The notes beneath the pieces are model-generated. The model ran no database searches, was not told the origin of the DNA, and saw only the letters and a list, made by a program, of their open reading frames with translations. A stretch of 53,421 nucleotides of DNA from Synechococcaceae cyanobacterium (lineage in GTDB: Bacteria > Cyanobacteriota > Cyanobacteriia > PCC-6307 > Cyanobiaceae), in NCBI GenBank assembly GCA_947378425.1, contig CANCJV010000028.1, positions 1-53,421 of the forward strand, written 5' to 3'. Positions 20,241 to 36,345 of the stretch are shown here, in pieces (within the stretch, counting starts at the first letter, position 1; each line of letters starts with the position of its first letter). A program made the translations under genes and the position numbers.

Positions 20241-23200
20241 TCAGATCACCGCCAGACCCCGAAGATCGCCGCCGTACCCCGTGATCTCCAGCAGCGCATC
20301 GGTCGAGGCCTGGAATCCGGCCACGCCATCGTTCAAGGCCACGAAGGTGCGGGTGGTTGGCCCAGAGCCGAAGCTGAAGGTGGCCGCCTGGTTGGCCAGG
20401 AAGCTGGTGGTGGTGAGCACGCTGGCCAGGCCTGTTTCGTTGAGAGCCGCCACCGAACCCAGCTTGGCCACCTGGGCGGCGGCCACCGCCGTCGGGCCAT
20501 CGAGGCTGTCGACGCCGATGTTGAAATCGGTGAGGCGATCCATCCCCCCCAGCAGCGACTGCCCCAGGCTGGTCAGCCGGAACACGTCGGCGCCCGCGAG
20601 GCCCGTGAGCAGATCCGCGCCAGGGCCGGACTTGAGCAGATTGGCCGTGGCGTCGCCGCTCTGGTAGTTGGGATTGCCTGAGGTGGCCGCCAGCTGGGCG
20701 GCGCTGGTGGAGAACAGGGCCGGCCCCGTGAGTGTGCCGGTATCGCCCAGGCCCAGACCCTGGTTGGCGTTGAAGCCCACGGTCACCGAGGCTCCCGCCG
20801 CCAGGTTCGCGCCCCAGTCCTTGCCGCTCAGGGTGGAGCGATAGAGACCGCCCCCCAGATTCACCTGGCTCAACGTCGCTCCCCAGGGGGCGCCACTGAG
20901 CACATGGGTGGTGTCAAACGTCAGGCTCCAGCTACCGAGAGCCGTCGTTCCGGTGTTGGTCACCGTGATCTGGGCGGTGAGACCGTGGTACCAGACGGAG
21001 CCGGCCACGCTCACCTTCAGGAAGGGCGAGCTGGGGGTGGGCACGGCCGGCTTGATCGCCCCGCCGGCATCGAAGATCGGCTGATCCGGCGAGGGTGGGG
21101 TTGGCACGATCGCCGCAGGAATGGCCACGCTGCCGCTGGTGACGGTTTCGGCGAATCCCTGCAGATCCCGATAACTGAGCTGCAGCCTCAGGCTCTGGCC
21201 CTGCTGGGCCGTGCCTGGCAGGAAACTGGCGCCATTGGCCCCTGAGATCGCCTGCCAGGAGCCACTGCCGCTGGCCAGAGCCTGCCATTGATAGGCGAAG
21301 CTGCCATCGCCGTCGGGATCGACCTGGGTTTCGCTGGCGGTGAGCACCTGCCCCACAGCTCCCGAGCCGATCAGAGCAAAGACCGCCTGGCCATCATTGA
21401 CGAAGGGAACGAGCTGTGAGGCCGTGAAGACGGTCTCCGAGAAATTGGCGGCATCGATGTAGGTGGCCTTCAGACGCACGCTCTTGCCTTCCTCCGCGTG
21501 GCTCAGCAGCAGGGACGGGGCATTGGTTCCCAGGGGGCTCCAGTTCTGGCCGCCATCGCCGGAGGCCTGCCACTGGTAGGTGACACCAGCGCTGCCCTGG
21601 CCATTGGGATCGTTGGCACTCTGGATCGCCGTCAGGGTCGCTCCAACGGCCGCCGTGCCGCCGATGGCAAAGCTGGCCGCGCCCAGATTCACCGGTGCAG
21701 GGGGTGGTGTGGGTGTCGGTGTGGGTGTTGGGGGTGGGGTTGGCGTGGTTGTCAGGGAATGAACGGTGATGCCGGGCAGCGCATCGAGCTCCGCGTCGGT
21801 GAGGGCGACACCGCCCTTGAGTTCAACGCTGCGGGCGAAGGCACCGGTCAGGCCGGCGTTGTAATCCAGTGCCACCTCATTGGAGACGTAATCACTGCGG
21901 ACATCGCTGTAGGAGGTGTCATTGGCCTGGGTCGGCCCCCCCACCAGGGCGCCGAAATCAATGTGAGCATTGGGCAGCCCATTTCTGAAGCCATCCCAGC
22001 CCACTCCAGAGGCCTCACGGCTGTGGGGCTGTTGGGGGAAATTATTGCCATAGCCCACCAGGTAACTGGACTGGCGCGGGTTGGCACCGAGAATGTAGTC
22101 CACGGTCTGCTGCGCCAGGGCGGTGTAGGTCCCATTGGGATCATTGACACTGCTGGCGTAGACATCCGCCAGGAAGGCTGTATTGGCGGCATAGCGAAGC
22201 GAGCCCCACTGGCTGATCCAGCGCAGACCGCCTGCCGTGATCGTGACACCATTGCCACCGGTCACCCAGTTATTCAGCCAGCCCTCCACCTGCTGTTTGA
22301 TCGCCGTCGAACCAGTCTGCTGAGCCAGCAATATGGCTGTGGCATAGGAGCTGTCGTCCCAGTTCCCTGTCCAGCCCTTGTTCAGGCCGCCGATATTGGT
22401 GTTGTAGAGATTGAGCGCTTTGTTCAAATAAGCCGAGCCATCGCCTCCCTGGGCTTTCACCGCCTGGGCCAGCCACACGGCGCCATTGGCAAGCTCATCA
22501 TAATAACCACTATAGGAATTATAAAATCCCTGCACTACGGGGATCGAGTCTGAATACTTGCCCCGATAGGTGTCGGCGAACTGGTACAGGGCAATGGCGC
22601 TATTCAGAAGCTTGTCGGCATAGGCAATATCACCGCTGCGGCGAAACAGAATCGAAGCTGAGGCCATGGCCGCGGCGCTGCCGCCGGCGACATCGGAGCC
22701 TGGCTTGCTGGCCGTCACCGCCATCGCCGGACGAAGGATGGTTTCGGTTTCAGCGGGTTGCCAGAGGGCGTGGTCGGCATCGGCATCGCCAACCTGGGCC
22801 ACGAAAAAGGAGGTCTTGCCGGAGCTGTCCAGCACATTGCACTTGAGCAGATAGTCGGTGCCCCACTTCAGCGCCGCCAGTAGATCATCGTCCTGGCCTG
22901 AGGCGGCGTAGCCCTTGCCAAATTGCAACCCTCCCCAGGCGAGGTTGGTGAGACTGGATGCCAGTGGCAGGCCAAACTTTCCATAATCGCCGGCATCGTG
23001 ATAGCCGCCGCTGAGATCCAGCTTCAGCCCTGCCTGGAGATTGGCGCTGGTGTTGGATCCGAAATAAACTCCATCCAGTCCATCATGGAGGCCGGAATCT
23101 CCTCGCCAGTCGATGCGATTGCTGGCTTCATCAAGATTGCCGGAACGCTGGCCCTCATAAAACAGAAACGATTTCTGCAGCGCCTCGGCGTAATTGGTGC

Positions 23201-23690
23201 CACCGCCCTTCACCGCAAACGAGCTGGGATTCACTTCGCCTGTTGCCGCGGGCGCTGGCGGTGTTGGCGTGGGGCTGGGGCTCGGAGGTGGCGTTGGGGT
23301 TGCCGTTGGCGCAGGCGACGCTGCCGCGCTCAGGACCGGCTTGGTGACGAACAGATCGGAGGCCTGGAGCGCGCCGCCGGCAGCGCCGGCGGGCCGGGTG
23401 GCCGTGAATCCGACGGTGACCGAGCCACCGGCCGCCAGGGCCGAACCCCAATCAATGCCGGTGAGCGTATAACCGTAATGACCGTCAGCCAGGGTGGTGA
23501 CCGTGTAGGTCATCCCCCAGGGGACACCGCTGATCAGCACATCACTTTCAAAGGAAAGGCTCCAGTCAGCCAACGGCACGGCGCCGGTGTTGGTGATCGT
23601 CAATTGGGCTGTCAGCCCTCCATCCCAGGTGGATCCACCCAGGAGCAAATTGAGAGTGGGATCTCCCGTGCTGGCAATCAATGAGGCCAT
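20241..23690 (-). CDS. Multidomain GH9 cellulase with bluetail C-terminus
   Basis: 1149 residues. Order: CBM2 cellulose-binding module (8-115, Trp-rich TWDGGLTAQLTITNTG); Pro/Thr linker (125-148); GH9 catalytic domain (160-625) with DLSGGYHDAGDYGKFGLP (Asp232/Asp235), SREAS near 557-561 and VSNEVALDYNAG (acid Glu605); PT linker (646-666); two Ig-like repeats (668-765 and 768-858, each with YQWQA); a second CBM2 (888-1000); and a C-terminal domain (1012-1149) reading GGMDRLTDFNIGVDSLDGP...FVALNDGVAGFQASTDALLEITGY, which I recognise as the cyanobacterial bluetail surface-protein domain. No N-terminal signal peptide, consistent with C-terminal (type I-like) export. It should cut beta-1,4-glucan outside the cell. 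Divergent from a LuxR regulator. Confidence 0.92.
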   Translation of the reverse strand: MASLIASTGDPTLNLLLGGSTWDGGLTAQLTITNTGAVPLADWSLSFESDVLISGVPWGMTYTVTTLADGHYGYTLTGIDWGSALAAGGSVTVGFTATRPAGAAGGALQASDLFVTKPVLSAAASPAPTATPTPPPSPSPTPTPPAPAATGEVNPSSFAVKGGGTNYAEALQKSFLFYEGQRSGNLDEASNRIDWRGDSGLHDGLDGVYFGSNTSANLQAGLKLDLSGGYHDAGDYGKFGLPLASSLTNLAWGGLQFGKGYAASGQDDDLLAALKWGTDYLLKCNVLDSSGKTSFFVAQVGDADADHALWQPAETETILRPAMAVTASKPGSDVAGGSAAAMASASILFRRSGDIAYADKLLNSAIALYQFADTYRGKYSDSIPVVQGFYNSYSGYYDELANGAVWLAQAVKAQGGDGSAYLNKALNLYNTNIGGLNKGWTGNWDDSSYATAILLAQQTGSTAIKQQVEGWLNNWVTGGNGVTITAGGLRWISQWGSLRYAANTAFLADVYASSVNDPNGTYTALAQQTVDYILGANPRQSSYLVGYGNNFPQQPHSREASGVGWDGFRNGLPNAHIDFGALVGGPTQANDTSYSDVRSDYVSNEVALDYNAGLTGAFARSVELKGGVALTDAELDALPGITVHSLTTTPTPPPTPTPTPTPPPAPVNLGAASFAIGGTAAVGATLTAIQSANDPNGQGSAGVTYQWQASGDGGQNWSPLGTNAPSLLLSHAEEGKSVRLKATYIDAANFSETVFTASQLVPFVNDGQAVFALIGSGAVGQVLTASETQVDPDGDGSFAYQWQALASGSGSWQAISGANGASFLPGTAQQGQSLRLQLSYRDLQGFAETVTSGSVAIPAAIVPTPPSPDQPIFDAGGAIKPAVPTPSSPFLKVSVAGSVWYHGLTAQITVTNTGTTALGSWSLTFDTTHVLSGAPWGATLSQVNLGGGLYRSTLSGKDWGANLAAGASVTVGFNANQGLGLGDTGTLTGPALFSTSAAQLAATSGNPNYQSGDATANLLKSGPGADLLTGLAGADVFRLTSLGQSLLGGMDRLTDFNIGVDSLDGPTAVAAAQVAKLGSVAALNETGLASVLTTTSFLANQAATFSFGSGPTTRTFVALNDGVAGFQASTDALLEITGYGGDLRGLAVI

Positions 23691-23703: not shown

Positions 23704-23757
23704 GACTCCTGGAGTCAAATCCCACTCACCGGCAGCTGACGATCCCCGAAAGGGGAT
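23704..23757 (-). promoter_or_regulatory. Palindrome and hairpin upstream of cellulase
   Basis: A perfect 6-1-6 inverted repeat gactcc-t-ggagtc (23704-23716) sits 14-26 bases before the cellulase ATG. On the coding strand it contains AGGAG, the only Shine-Dalgarno-like sequence near the start, although it is rather far (about 17 bases). A second hairpin with stem atcccc/ggggat and a GAAA tetraloop lies at 23742-23757. These could be an operator, or a leader structure that hides the ribosome site. No -10/-35 boxes are clear. Confidence 0.35.
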
Positions 23758-24068: not shown

Positions 24069-24761
24069 GTGGATTTAACTTATAAAATTCCGTCGCTGAT
24101 TCACAGCCGTAAAGTCATACTTGAGGCCATCGCCAGAAGTGGAAGCGAGTCCACTGTCGCCATCGCCATGCAACGGGAAGAGCAGCTGCTTCCCTTGGTG
24201 ATGGGTTTCAGGGATCCCAAGTTCATCCGCTACATGGGAACCGATGCCAGCAGCTGCCTTGGGGCCTTCAGTCAAAAGCCCATTGGTTTCCTGATCTGCA
24301 CCGATCATCTTGAGCAGGGCGACGGCTTTCATCTCTGCCAGACCATCAAGACCATCAGCCCAGCCACCAAGACTCTGCTGATCTGCACAGGCCATCAGAT
24401 TGATCAACGTGCTTTTGATGCCGACGAAATTAATGGCATCTTGTGCTATCAGGAACTGATTGAAGCCAGGGGTATCCTCGGCGCAGCGATTCTGGCGGCC
24501 AGCGTCGGCAGGCGCTATCGCAGCCAGCGCATTCGCGACATCTCGGAAAAAACATCCAGCCTGGATCTCAAAGAGAGGGATTACGACATTCTCCATTGCC
24601 TGGCCGATGGCATGAGCAATCGCGAAATCGCCGATGCCCTGCAGATCAGCGAACAGACAGCCAAGACTTATACCAAGCGCCTGATCGGCAATCTCAGCGC
24701 CAAGAACCGCCTCCATGCCCTGATCCTTGGCCTGCGCTACGGCCTCACCAGCATTCGCTGA
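24069..24761 (+). CDS. LuxR-type response regulator
   Basis: 230 residues from GTG 24069. Residues 20-145 form a receiver-like domain: FLICTDHLEQGDGFHLCQTI holds the likely phospho-acceptor Asp, and TKTLLICTG is the fourth strand, but the usual final Lys is not evident, so the domain is atypical. Residues 165-225 are a LuxR/GerE helix-turn-helix (LKERDYDILHCLADGMSNREIADAL followed by SEQTAKTYTKRLIGNL). No histidine kinase is nearby. Its divergent placement 378 bp from the cellulase makes control of that gene an attractive guess. Confidence 0.85.
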   Translation: MDLTYKIPSLIHSRKVILEAIARSGSESTVAIAMQREEQLLPLVMGFRDPKFIRYMGTDASSCLGAFSQKPIGFLICTDHLEQGDGFHLCQTIKTISPATKTLLICTGHQIDQRAFDADEINGILCYQELIEARGILGAAILAASVGRRYRSQRIRDISEKTSSLDLKERDYDILHCLADGMSNREIADALQISEQTAKTYTKRLIGNLSAKNRLHALILGLRYGLTSIR

Positions 24762-32087: not shown

Positions 32088-35000
32088 TCAGGCCGGAGCC
32101 GGCCGCCGGCGAATGCGCCAGAAGGCCAGCTGCCAGGGGCCCAGCGCCAGGTGGTCCTCGCCTGAGGCCCATGGGCGATCGAGCCCGTCGAGCCGCTCCA
32201 GCACCTGCCAGTGCGCGCCCAACTCCAGCCGGCGCCGGCAGGGCCCTTCGTTCTGGACGCTGAGCACCAGGTCAATCCCGGCGTGATCGGCAGCGCCGCC
32301 GAACGGCTCCCCCGTGGGCTGATCCGCCGCCATCGGCGCAACGCTGATCGGCTCCGCGCTGGAGCGATCCTGGCAGGCGAGCCCGGTGGGATTGTCAGCA
32401 GCAGGACCCGTGGCAGAGGTGGGGGCGACTGAGGCATGCGCGTGGGTGGGGCGCAGCCCGACCAACCGCAGATCGTCCTGCAGGAGTGGAATGAAGGGCC
32501 CGGCGGGCGACCGCGGTCCAGTCGGCTGAGATCCGGAGCGTTCGGAGGGAGCCCCATGGGGGCCAGACGATCGGGTGCCAGGCGGCTGGCGCGGCCGCAG
32601 CCAGAGGGGCTCGCGCAGCCGTCGGGCCTGCTGGGGCACCTGGGCCTGCCGCCAGCCTGCCGGCGCCGCCATCAGGCCCAGGCGCTGGCGCTGCCAGCCG
32701 TTGTCGGCGCCGGGATCGGGCCAGGTGGGGGCTCGCAGCAGCGAGACGCTGAGACGATCGGCTGTGGCTGAAACTCCCTGGGGCCCATCCAGCAGCACTG
32801 CCACGCCAGCGGCGGCGGCCCAGCTGATCGCCGGCACCTCCCAGCGGGCCTGCTCCCGCGGTGTGCGCGCCACGGCGGGTCGTTCGATCACGCCGGCACT
32901 GGTGTCCGCCGCCCAGCGCTCGGCCTTGCCGGCCAGGGGGATCTCCAGCTGCAGCAGCTCGTGGCGCTGGCGCCACTGCTGGCAGAGCACCAGCTCCAGC
33001 CAGGGGCTGCCGGCCAGCAGGCGCAGCTCCAGCCGCACCGGGCTCTCGCCGACGATGCCGCGCCAGCGGAACTGGGCAGCCAGGGGACCGGCGCTGACCA
33101 GCTCCGGTGCTCCCTGCCAATCCCAGGGCAGCGGATGGCGGCGGTGATCGGCGGCCAGATCCCAGGCATCCCAGAACTCGCCCCGATCGGCCCAGCGCTG
33201 CCAGCGCAAGGGTGCCGCCAGCAGGGAGTTGCCCTCGCCCGCGACCAGCTGTTCCAGTCCTGCCGGGCCGATCACGGCCTCGATCAGGCCGTTGCCGAGG
33301 CGCCAGTGGTCGGGCCCGAGCTCCTCAGCGCCGATCAGGTGCACGGGCTGGTGTGGTTCCAGGTGCTGGTGGAACTGGGTTGCTGCCAGGGGCTGCCCTG
33401 CGGCCGGGGACTGCCGGGAAGGCGTCGGTACGGATGCGGGGGGTCTCTGTTGGGGTTGCCTGGGCTGCGCTGCTGCGGGTGGCCGCAGCGGCTCGACGGG
33501 TGGCGCCTTCCAGATTCGCTCTGGCGGCAGGGCTTCAAGGCTGGCCGAAGCCAGGGCCGCCGGGATGGCCCGGCGCCGAAGCGCCAGGGCCGCCACCCCG
33601 GCGGGCACGGGCAGCTGGATCCAGACACCCCCCTCGCCAGCGGCCTGGCCCGGCAGGGCTGACTCCTGGCCGTCGGCCTGAATCAGGCTCCAATCGCCTG
33701 CGGGCAGGCGCAGAGTGTGGCCAGCGGCCGGCAGCGTCTGCAGCTGGACCAGCCACCAGAGCTGGTCGCCGGGCGCCTGCGTGCTCCGGTCCTGGGCCGG
33801 ATCGCTGTTCCGATCGACGGCCAGAAGGCTGGCCTTGTTGCTGATCTCCTGGCTCAGGGGGCGGCCATCAGAGAGGTTCGGCAGCGGCGGCAGAGCCCAT
33901 GCCGCTGCTGCCAGATGGGAGCGGACCTTCTGCGGGGGATCCCCCGACGGGCTGGCCGAGAGCTCCTTCTCCGGCGCCGTGGTTCCCGGCGAGGGCTCCG
34001 GGCATGGCGCTGCCGTCCGGGCACCAGCGTTAGCGTCCGCCCTGGCCAGGAGTGCCTGCAGATCCCGGTCGCGCTGGGAGCGGCTGCGCCGACGGGCTGC
34101 TCGCCACTGGGGCTCGGCCTGTTCGAACACCTCCGGGATCGACGTGCCCGGCAGGATGTCGTGAAACTGCTGGAACAGCAGGGGCCGCCAGTCGATGGCC
34201 GCTTCGCTCCCGGGGTCAGCCGCGCCCGCCAGCGGGCCGGCAACGGCTGCCCGGGCAGCAACTACGGCCTCGTCACCAACAGCGGCCTGACCCGTGACAG
34301 CCGATTGCCCAGCCGCCGCCGTCTGCCCAGTTGCAGCCTTCTGGCTGCCAGCGACAGCCTTCTGGCCCGCAACAGCCCTTGGCCCAGCACCCGCTGTCTG
34401 CTCAGCCACAGCTGTCTGGCTGCCATCGGCCGGCCGGTCCACGGCTGACATCCTTGCCCCAGCAGCCGACTGGGAGACACCCGGGATCAGGGAGACACCT
34501 GCCGCTGGACCACCCCCCGTTGATTGCCCACCAACAGCCGGTGGATCAGCGACAGCTCGGGCAACGGCGGCGATTGATCGCTCTCCAGCGGCTGACTGGC
34601 CCGGACCGGCTGAGGAACCGGCGACAGTCCCATTCCAGGCCATCAGCAGGGCCCGGGCCAGTTCCGCCTCCCGCAGCAGCCGCTCCAGGCTGCGGTTGTG
34701 TCGCTTCTGATCCGGCCGACTGGTGGCACAGCCCCGATGCAGCTCCAGGTAGAGCTCATCGCGCCAGACCGGCAACCGGGGGGCCAGGGGCTCCAGGCGC
34801 CCGAGATAGGCGCGCAGGGTGCCGTGGCGCTGGGGGACAGCCTGCGGTTGCTGTTGCCAGAGGGCCAGCTGCTCCAGCATCTCGGCGGTGGGGCCGCCGC
34901 CGTGATCGCCCACCCCCGGCAACCACAGGGCGTCCGCAATCCCGGTGGCCCGCTGCCAGTCGAGGCGGTAGGTCTCGATCGGCAGGGGATCGCCATCGGT

Positions 35001-36149
35001 GCCGATCGGCGCGCTCATCAGGGCCAGCACCTCGCTGCCGCAGCGGCTGCGCCAGCGGAACAGGCGATGGGGGAAGGGATTGGTGGCGTTCCAGGCCAGC
35101 TTGTGGGTGCAGAACCAGCGCACCCCGGTGGCCGCCGCCACGGCCGGCAGACCCGCGGCGAAGCCGAAGCTGTCGGGCAACCAGGCCAGGTTGTGGTCCC
35201 ATTCCGGGAAGGTCCGCCGGCTGTAGTGCTGCCCCTCCTGGAACTGGCGCAGCAGCGAGGCCGTGTCGATCAGCACGCAGTCGCTCTCGACCCAGGGGCC
35301 ATTGAGCGGCTCCCAGCGGCCGGCCCGCATCGCGGCGCGGATGCGCGCGAACAGGGCTGGCCGCTGAAGCTCCAGCCAGGCATAGAGGGCCGGGGTGGAA
35401 TGGCCGAAATGGAGCTGCGGGAAGCGCTCCATCAGATCCAGGGTGGAGACGAAGGTGCGCTCGGCCGCCCGCCAGGTGTCGGCCACCGGCCAGAGCCAGG
35501 CGAGATCGAGATGGGCATGGCCCAGCACCTGGACGGATCCGGCGGGGGCTCCCTCAGGCCAGCCCCGTTGCTGTCGCAGGGCCGCCAGGGCCGTCAGGGT
35601 GGGGGCCAGCAGGCCGTCGGGATCGCTGGGATCGAGCGGTTCGAGTTCCAGTCGGCTGTGGATCAGGGCGCCGTCGTCGTGGCAGGGACTGCGCAGAGCC
35701 ACTTCCAGCTGCACGGCTTCGCCGTTCCACCAGCGCTCGGGCAGGGGCCAGCGACAGGCGGTATCGAACAGATCGCCGCCGTGGATCAGTTCCGCGTCGA
35801 CGCGCAACTCCATCGCCTCGGCCCACCAGCGCAGACAGAGCCGTGCCACCGCCTTGCCGGGGCCCAGGGAGCGCCAGGGCTGCGGGCAGACCAGGGTCAA
35901 CCGCAGTCGCCGCCACTGGCCGCCCCGGGGCCAGATGATCAGGCCGCGGGCTGCCCAGTCGGGCCGATGGACCCGCCCCCAGGGATCCGCCAGGGCCGGC
36001 AGGGCGCCGGAATTCCCTTGCTGCCAGAGCCAGAGGGGCTGAAGATCGAGAGTCGGGTCCAAGGGCAAACGTGACTGAAACGTTTCAATCCAGGCGGGAA
36101 CGCACTGCTCCAGCCCCCCTGGCATCTTGGATGGCCATTCAAGCCCCAT
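32088..36149 (-). CDS. GH38 alpha-mannosidase with low-complexity insertions
   Basis: 1353 residues from ATG 36149 (ATG 36125 also possible); the frame extends upstream past psbI, so a longer start is unlikely. Catalytic features: zinc ligands in GHAHLDLAWLWP, nucleophile region GPWVESDCVLIDTASL, KRHNRSLERLLREAE and the late His in LLFQQFHDILPGTSIPEVF. C-terminal beta domains follow (LGNGLIEAVIGPAGL). It should hydrolyse alpha-mannosides, perhaps glycan from the cell's own surface or the surroundings; no signal peptide is seen. It is longer than common family members because of an Ala/Gly/Gln-rich insert (about 508-648), a Pro-rich insert (about 880-930) and a Pro/Ser/Ala-rich stretch near the C-terminus. 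It sits between psbN and psbI. Confidence 0.88.
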   Translation of the reverse strand: MGLEWPSKMPGGLEQCVPAWIETFQSRLPLDPTLDLQPLWLWQQGNSGALPALADPWGRVHRPDWAARGLIIWPRGGQWRRLRLTLVCPQPWRSLGPGKAVARLCLRWWAEAMELRVDAELIHGGDLFDTACRWPLPERWWNGEAVQLEVALRSPCHDDGALIHSRLELEPLDPSDPDGLLAPTLTALAALRQQRGWPEGAPAGSVQVLGHAHLDLAWLWPVADTWRAAERTFVSTLDLMERFPQLHFGHSTPALYAWLELQRPALFARIRAAMRAGRWEPLNGPWVESDCVLIDTASLLRQFQEGQHYSRRTFPEWDHNLAWLPDSFGFAAGLPAVAAATGVRWFCTHKLAWNATNPFPHRLFRWRSRCGSEVLALMSAPIGTDGDPLPIETYRLDWQRATGIADALWLPGVGDHGGGPTAEMLEQLALWQQQPQAVPQRHGTLRAYLGRLEPLAPRLPVWRDELYLELHRGCATSRPDQKRHNRSLERLLREAELARALLMAWNGTVAGSSAGPGQSAAGERSIAAVARAVADPPAVGGQSTGGGPAAGVSLIPGVSQSAAGARMSAVDRPADGSQTAVAEQTAGAGPRAVAGQKAVAGSQKAATGQTAAAGQSAVTGQAAVGDEAVVAARAAVAGPLAGAADPGSEAAIDWRPLLFQQFHDILPGTSIPEVFEQAEPQWRAARRRSRSQRDRDLQALLARADANAGARTAAPCPEPSPGTTAPEKELSASPSGDPPQKVRSHLAAAAWALPPLPNLSDGRPLSQEISNKASLLAVDRNSDPAQDRSTQAPGDQLWWLVQLQTLPAAGHTLRLPAGDWSLIQADGQESALPGQAAGEGGVWIQLPVPAGVAALALRRRAIPAALASASLEALPPERIWKAPPVEPLRPPAAAQPRQPQQRPPASVPTPSRQSPAAGQPLAATQFHQHLEPHQPVHLIGAEELGPDHWRLGNGLIEAVIGPAGLEQLVAGEGNSLLAAPLRWQRWADRGEFWDAWDLAADHRRHPLPWDWQGAPELVSAGPLAAQFRWRGIVGESPVRLELRLLAGSPWLELVLCQQWRQRHELLQLEIPLAGKAERWAADTSAGVIERPAVARTPREQARWEVPAISWAAAAGVAVLLDGPQGVSATADRLSVSLLRAPTWPDPGADNGWQRQRLGLMAAPAGWRQAQVPQQARRLREPLWLRPRQPPGTRSSGPHGAPSERSGSQPTGPRSPAGPFIPLLQDDLRLVGLRPTHAHASVAPTSATGPAADNPTGLACQDRSSAEPISVAPMAADQPTGEPFGGAADHAGIDLVLSVQNEGPCRRRLELGAHWQVLERLDGLDRPWASGEDHLALGPWQLAFWRIRRRPAPA
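34260..34600. repeat. Degenerate 18-21 bp repeats inside GH38 gene
   Basis: A run of about ten imperfect units such as gcccgcaacagcccttg and gctcagccacagctgtctg lies here. Most units are 18 or 21 bases, so the reading frame of the enzyme is kept and translates to AAAGQ / AVAGQ-type peptides between the catalytic and C-terminal parts. The units resemble those in the txlA-thyX intergenic region. Confidence 0.6.
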
Positions 36150-36225
36150 AGGATGATGCGGCTGCCGCTGGGTCCACCAGACCCCTCCCGGCCTCCTGTC
36201 ACTCCCTGTCACCTGCCGGACAGCC

Positions 36226-36345
36226 ATGCTCGCGCTCAAGATCTCGGTCTACTCGGTCGTTTTCTTCTTTATCGGGATCTTCGTGTTCGGCTTCCTGGCC
36301 AGCGATCCCAGCCGCACCCCGAGCCGCAAGGACCTCGAAGACTGA
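36226..36345 (+). CDS. psbI: Photosystem II reaction centre protein PsbI
   Basis: 39 residues from ATG 36226: [20 protein letters not shown] is the single membrane helix and [17 protein letters not shown] the conserved tail. Subunit at the D1/CP43 side of photosystem II. Too short to appear among long open frames; read directly. Divergent from the GH38 gene, 76 bp between starts. Confidence 0.97.

Follow-up and report, generated by a model that had tools for sequence, protein, structure and literature searches.

A leaderless GH9 cellulase of a freshwater picocyanobacterium with a proposed type I secretion tail and a LuxR-type neighbour

The genome of a Synechococcaceae cyanobacterium (3.63 Mb, 84 contigs, 98.6% complete), for which the earlier note's label "picocyanobacterium" fits, encodes a modular GH9 cellulase whose C-terminus resembles those of RTX proteins exported by type I systems. 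The gene (20241..23690, minus strand, ATG start, 1149 aa) lies in the window analyzed here, i.e., the whole stretch of 53,421 nucleotides (G000:C28:1-53421). The explanation that we regard as reasonably probable, judged from the sequence and a predicted fold, is that of a leaderless endo-acting cellulase, exported via its tail, acting on the cellulose of other organisms and controlled by a LuxR-type regulator. Synthesized in the cytoplasm without a leader, the protein would leave the cell in a single step via an HlyB/HlyD-type (type I) exporter, directed by its uncleaved RTX/bluetail C-terminus. Outside the cell, the enzyme, equipped with two CBM2 modules, would bind and nick cellulose, likely that of algae or plant debris and not the cell's own, and expression of its gene probably depends on the adjoining regulator, acting via the upstream region that the two genes share. 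This account of activity, export route, substrate, and control draws on the domains, the catalytic motifs, the likeness of the tail, an exporter in the genome, and the neighbouring regulator gene, all of which are seen directly. If it is true, abundant freshwater phototrophs join the attack on cellulose, which is usually credited to heterotrophs.

Domain composition of the cellulase

From the N-terminus, the protein consists of a CBM2, a proline/threonine linker, the GH9 catalytic domain, a further linker, two Ig-like repeats, a second CBM2, and a 140-aa tail ending in the bluetail domain. The open reading frame, Pfam and NCBIfam matches, and an alignment of the repeats confirm the length and domain order that the earlier note had proposed. 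The Glyco_hydro_9 profile matches aa 167-617 (21840..23192, minus strand) over positions 1-443 of 444, with E 6.3e-131 and 438.2 bits against a cut-off of 27.7 (Pfam). Two stretches match CBM_2 (55.8 bits, cut-off 24), the first at aa 20-102 (23385..23633) and the second at 20754..20999, both on the minus strand. The Ig-like repeats (aa 672-768 and 769 to about 863; 21102..21677, minus strand) were defined by their mutual alignment; no Pfam family matched them, and an NCBIfam match to ZirU over this region stays below the cut-off (33.3 vs 100).

The residues named in the earlier note are in place within the catalytic domain: D232 and D235 lie in a DAGD motif starting at 232, and E605 in SNEVALDYNAG starting at 603. 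From general knowledge of GH9 enzymes, we take these three to be the catalytic residues. Both motifs are matched in the alignment with Thermobifida fusca E4, which spans aa 165-634 with E 1.9e-114. The Pfam scan, followed up to E 1, gave no CBM3 after the GH9 domain. Because E4 is the best solved relative but carries a CBM3 at that place, plain endo action is proposed for the cyanobacterial protein, which is predicted to be, and looks like, a genuine cellulose-cutting enzyme. The window also holds a GH38 alpha-mannosidase gene (1383-aa frame, 32091-36239, minus strand).

The C-terminal tail and the export route

The C-terminal unit of about 140 aa (20244..20663, minus strand) has an RTX/serralysin-like first half, followed by a 47-aa match to bluetail (NF041519; aa 1097-1143; 20262..20402, minus strand; E 4e-17, 61.8 bits vs a cut-off of 21, NCBIfam), the domain that the earlier note had recognized. 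A profile was built from nine tails, five of GH9 proteins and four of other bluetail proteins of the same genome, and each of the nine aligned tails hits the bluetail as well as the Zn_serralysin family at E<=1. Searched against the PDB, this profile found 37 distinct sequences at E<=1, with serralysins at the top (E 4e-12) and PrtC, CyaA segments, mannuronan epimerases, and a lipase also among them; the matches sit mostly in the RTX-like first half (profile positions 2-66). RTX repeats of the GGxGxDxUx type are weak in the tail (HemolysinCabind 15.8 bits vs a cut-off of 23), and a Peptidase_M10_C match is likewise below the cut-off (19.1 vs 20.7). The predicted fold of the tail has a pLDDT of 76.4 and a pTM of 0.77, with residues 1-14 mostly poor. 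Foldseek found nothing at E<=0.001, its best match having E 0.021. A second aligner, rerun on Foldseek's own match list, gave Z 10.2 for RsaA 866-1022 (127 residues, 25% identity), 9.5 for PrtC 348-479, 8.8 for an alginate epimerase/lyase, about 6.9 for serralysins, and 5.6 for CylK, which is not, to our knowledge, a known type I substrate.

By both profile and fold, the tail thus behaves as an RTX/type I secretion C-terminus, and the term "surface-targeted", used in the earlier note, is unsupported as stated. The two results that would have counted against that note, a C-terminus unlike any surface or secretion family and a catalytic domain without GH9 homology, are not seen. The tail looks more like an export signal of the RTX kind than like a surface anchor, and it is proposed to serve type I export. 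Shed enzymes, the serralysins, have RTX C-termini, and so does the S-layer protein RsaA; the tail is therefore evidence for export and not for a final location. In RTX proteins, the signal for type I export is described as lying at the C-terminus and staying uncleaved (PMC3034196). An anchored enzyme, held on the cell by bluetail so that the cell could fasten itself to cellulose and break it down on the spot, seems unlikely to us. NCBIfam does give bluetail the label "putative surface protein", RsaA is the best fold match, the two CBM2 modules would tether the cell to cellulose, and a protein exported by such a tail can still stay bound. However, the tail also matches serralysin-type enzymes, which are released, and RsaA is described as held via lipopolysaccharide and other RsaA units (PMC3034196), whereas no second anchor is seen in the cellulase.

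Type I export, the preferred reading, can be set beside the distribution of leaders and exporters. An 11-residue Kyte-Doolittle window with a limit of 1.9, which was our choice, shows no hydrophobic N-terminal leader in the cellulase, in agreement with the earlier note. By the same window, 50 of 53 closed cyanobacterial GH9 frames are leaderless, compared with 12 of 43 others, the rows being related and the samples not independent. Tail-less picocyanobacterial and most filamentous cyanobacterial GH9 proteins are leaderless as well, so type I export does not follow from a missing leader by itself. Of six further bluetail frames in the genome, four have a closed N-terminus, and none of these four has a hydrophobic leader at the first ATG or, at L017, at a TTG. 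An HlyB-type ABC protein is encoded at G000 C1:136535-139483 (TIGR01846, 727.2 bits vs a cut-off of 725.55), and beside it lie the genes of an HlyD-like protein (176 bits vs 208.65) and of an RTX-repeat protein. A second ABC/HlyD pair on contig C25 is weaker (600 and 171 bits, the HlyD cut-off being 208.65). These exporter genes are unlinked to the cellulase gene. HlyD-like proteins occur in all 42 genomes of the genus and exceed the cut-off in three, the host not among them.

Distribution, descent, and the LuxR-type neighbour

Within the host genus code, which covers 42 genomes, GH9 was found in 16 genomes and bluetail in 30. In the family, 34 of 400 genomes and 10 of 59 genera have GH9; in the phylum, 19 of 386 genomes (18 above the cut-off) and 13 of 142 genera. 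The pairing of GH9 with bluetail, to which the earlier note had drawn attention, is genuine and has arisen in the data repeatedly, with the tail present on 13 of the genus's 16 GH9 frames. A fourteenth (G023) ends at a contig edge, and a CBM2 + bluetail frame on another contig may be its missing part; the frames of G032 and G040 have no tail. The tailed proteins come in two forms, a long one (CBM2-GH9-Ig-CBM2-tail) and a short one that begins with GH9 right from the N-terminus. A decayed copy (L049, genome G088) joins 62 aa of the GH9 start to the tail, with a partial LuxR match beside it.

The tree of the catalytic domain (100 rows, quick method, SH-aLRT support only) groups the picocyanobacterial rows (99), with one Planctomycetaceae row within, and the 18 bluetail-clade rows (97). 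In the genus, a ThyX-type gene and its neighbours flank long- and short-form loci alike. Since the tree keeps the picocyanobacterial rows together and the flanks are common to both forms, the gene was more probably inherited vertically within the family than imported recently. A phage origin was rejected, as viral contigs gave five pattern-matching stretches, none confirmed as relatives; so was a plasmid origin, the plasmid search giving eight records, all below 60% identity.

Several of the relatives are unusual in themselves. The planctomycete row (L077, Planctomycetaceae UBA7805) carries a GH9 69% identical, inside the picocyanobacterial clade, on a protein whose N-terminus looks planctomycete by eye; it may represent a transfer or a misbinned contig. 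A record titled as a Bifidobacterium breve MAG (L071) holds a cyanobacterial GH9 locus and is apparently mislabelled. In Mastigocoleus testarum (L091:7968-10691), a leaderless GH9-CBM2 protein continues into an expansin-like domain, DPBB_1. Marine-type GH9 proteins (L060, L057, L056, L062) begin with a region of no assigned family; that of L060 matched nothing specific in Pfam or NCBIfam and that of L056 nothing in Pfam.

A LuxR-type regulator gene with a GerE helix-turn-helix (24069..24761, plus strand) diverges from the cellulase gene, 378 bp apart; the N-terminal half of its product has no Pfam match. Such a gene adjoins GH9 in all 18 bluetail-clade loci (17 with the tail seen, plus G023). 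It is divergent in the eight long-form loci, at 198-392 bp, and lies upstream on the same strand in the ten short-form loci, at 122-136 bp. Across the 42 genomes, the best 14 matches to the LuxR-type protein are exactly the neighbours of the 14 GH9 genes of the bluetail class, with 38-100% identity. Paralogues at other places also reach 38%, though with lower scores, and the two groups therefore cannot be told apart by identity alone. Of the 14 other picocyanobacterial GH9 genes, 9 have a weaker relative (39-76 bits) upstream, and none was found upstream at L047, L048, L056, L059, and L061; L063 is cut, and the count leaves out the weak GH9 of L054 and the L049 remnant. Among 11 CBM2 frames without GH9, six loci were fetched, and all six have a LuxR relative 101-159 bp upstream on the same strand. 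They read as GH18 chitinases, L064 by a scan (GH18 26.0 vs a cut-off of 29.6) and the others by eye. Weak LuxR matches in other loci (L089, L119, L130, L150) are in no case adjacent to GH9. The L064 locus belongs to the host itself (G000:C8:12130-14007; L064:4131-6008) and encodes a leaderless CBM2 + GH18-like chitinase with the LuxR-type gene upstream; a long perfect inverted repeat, noted by eye, lies between the two.

Between the cellulase and its regulator, 51 bp upstream of the cellulase start codon, lies a perfect inverted repeat, ATCCCC-N4-GGGGAT (23742..23757). Its TCCCC-N4-GGGGA part is kept in seven of seven long-form intergenic regions, and this core occurs 13 times in 53 stretches (849,729 bases), seven of them at the GH9 upstream place. 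The short forms have a C-run/G-run element that by eye is similar, not identical, to it. With up to two mismatches allowed, the window contains 3 copies of the pattern against an expectation of 5.4, which is no enrichment, so the case for the palindrome rests on its exact copy and its conservation. An RNA hairpin was rejected, the fold of the region being no better than that of shuffles (z 0.00). We infer that the palindrome is a candidate operator.

Substrate and relation to known systems

The substrate proposed in the earlier note was the cyanobacterium's own cellulose or that of algae. The best CelA-like protein of the host reaches 183 bits against a cut-off of 699 and, by eye, lacks the D, DxD, ED, and QxxRW motifs that its homologue in G006 shows. 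These motifs, which we take to be the catalytic ones of cellulose synthase, being absent, own cellulose is an unlikely target in this host. Turnover or remodelling of the cell's own cellulose, or of a cellulose-like sheath, is thus given a very low probability. All seven short-form species do have a strong CelA-like gene, the one of G006 with canonical motifs, but all seven long-form genomes, the host included, are without a strong hit. As none of the 42 genomes passes the CelA cut-off, a diverged cyanobacterial synthase could be missed. In the genus, a strong CelA-like hit is present in 8 of 16 genomes with GH9 and 14 of 26 without (Fisher p 1.0), i.e., no association either way. A different target, such as another beta-glucan or, together with neighbouring GH18 enzymes, material containing chitin, is just as improbable: CBM2 also occurs on GH18-type enzymes of the genus and one relative fuses GH18-like, CBM2, and GH9 parts in one chain, but the catalytic domain is close to characterized endoglucanases. 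That relative (L047:6994-10260, genome G084) is a leaderless chain of 1088 aa with a GH18-like part below the cut-off, two CBM2 modules, and GH9.

Cellulose of other organisms remains the preferred substrate. The full enzyme set of a saprotroph was rejected for the genus on a search of GH1, GH3, and GH5, since GH1 is found in 0 of 42 genomes and GH5 in 1 of 42; GH3, present in 41 of 42, is therefore uninformative. Among the families searched, GH9 is nearly alone, so its role would be more like nicking or colonizing cellulose than living on it. These data suggest that some photosynthetic plankton may work on the cellulose of other organisms.

A broader model, which we advance tentatively and hold with less confidence than the explanation of the single enzyme, is that of a picocyanobacterial cassette, in which a LuxR-type gene would accompany a leaderless CBM2 polysaccharidase with an exchangeable catalytic part (GH9 for cellulose, GH18 for chitin, or both). 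One clade would have added the type I secretion tail, a further export route would serve the tail-less leaderless enzymes, and the whole may form a freshwater cellulose counterpart of the chitin-raft life of marine picocyanobacteria. That way of life has been proposed in a paper that uses neither the word "cellulose" nor "cellulase" (PMC12329445).

In the open-access literature searched, none of the listed papers deals with a cyanobacterial GH9 enzyme in its title or the opening of its abstract, and the titles listed for "bluetail" are animal studies, which fits the earlier description of the combination as under-described. The portions of that literature available to the search likewise gave nothing on the GH9-bluetail combination, the history of the clade, or the LuxR pairing. 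GH9, CBM2, RTX tails, and type I-secreted glycanases are known already; the pairing of a LuxR-type gene with bluetail-clade GH9, the domain combination, and the clade history appear new against that literature.

Among known systems, T. fusca E4 (Cel9A, PDB 1js4) is like the cellulase in its GH9 domain and catalytic motifs; the cyanobacterial protein differs in having neither the CBM3 after GH9 nor a leader, and in its Ig-like repeats, CBM2 modules, and RTX/bluetail tail. Type I RTX proteins (serralysins, PrtC, RsaA) resemble the last 140 aa in fold and profile and also lack a leader, whereas the cellulase has few recognizable RTX repeats, carries GH9 as cargo, and is exported by prediction. 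In Rhizobium, the type I system PrsDE is described as secreting two glycoside hydrolases, PlyA and PlyB, the latter scored leaderless, which cut the bacterium's own exopolysaccharide (PMC2275737); the comparison is by description. Within picocyanobacteria, ChiA of marine Synechococcus WH7803, compared by description and not by sequence, likewise unites CBM2 with a glycoside hydrolase, although it is a GH18 chitinase, and the reported loss of extracellular activity in a chiA mutant indicates that ChiA is extracellular (PMC10651935).
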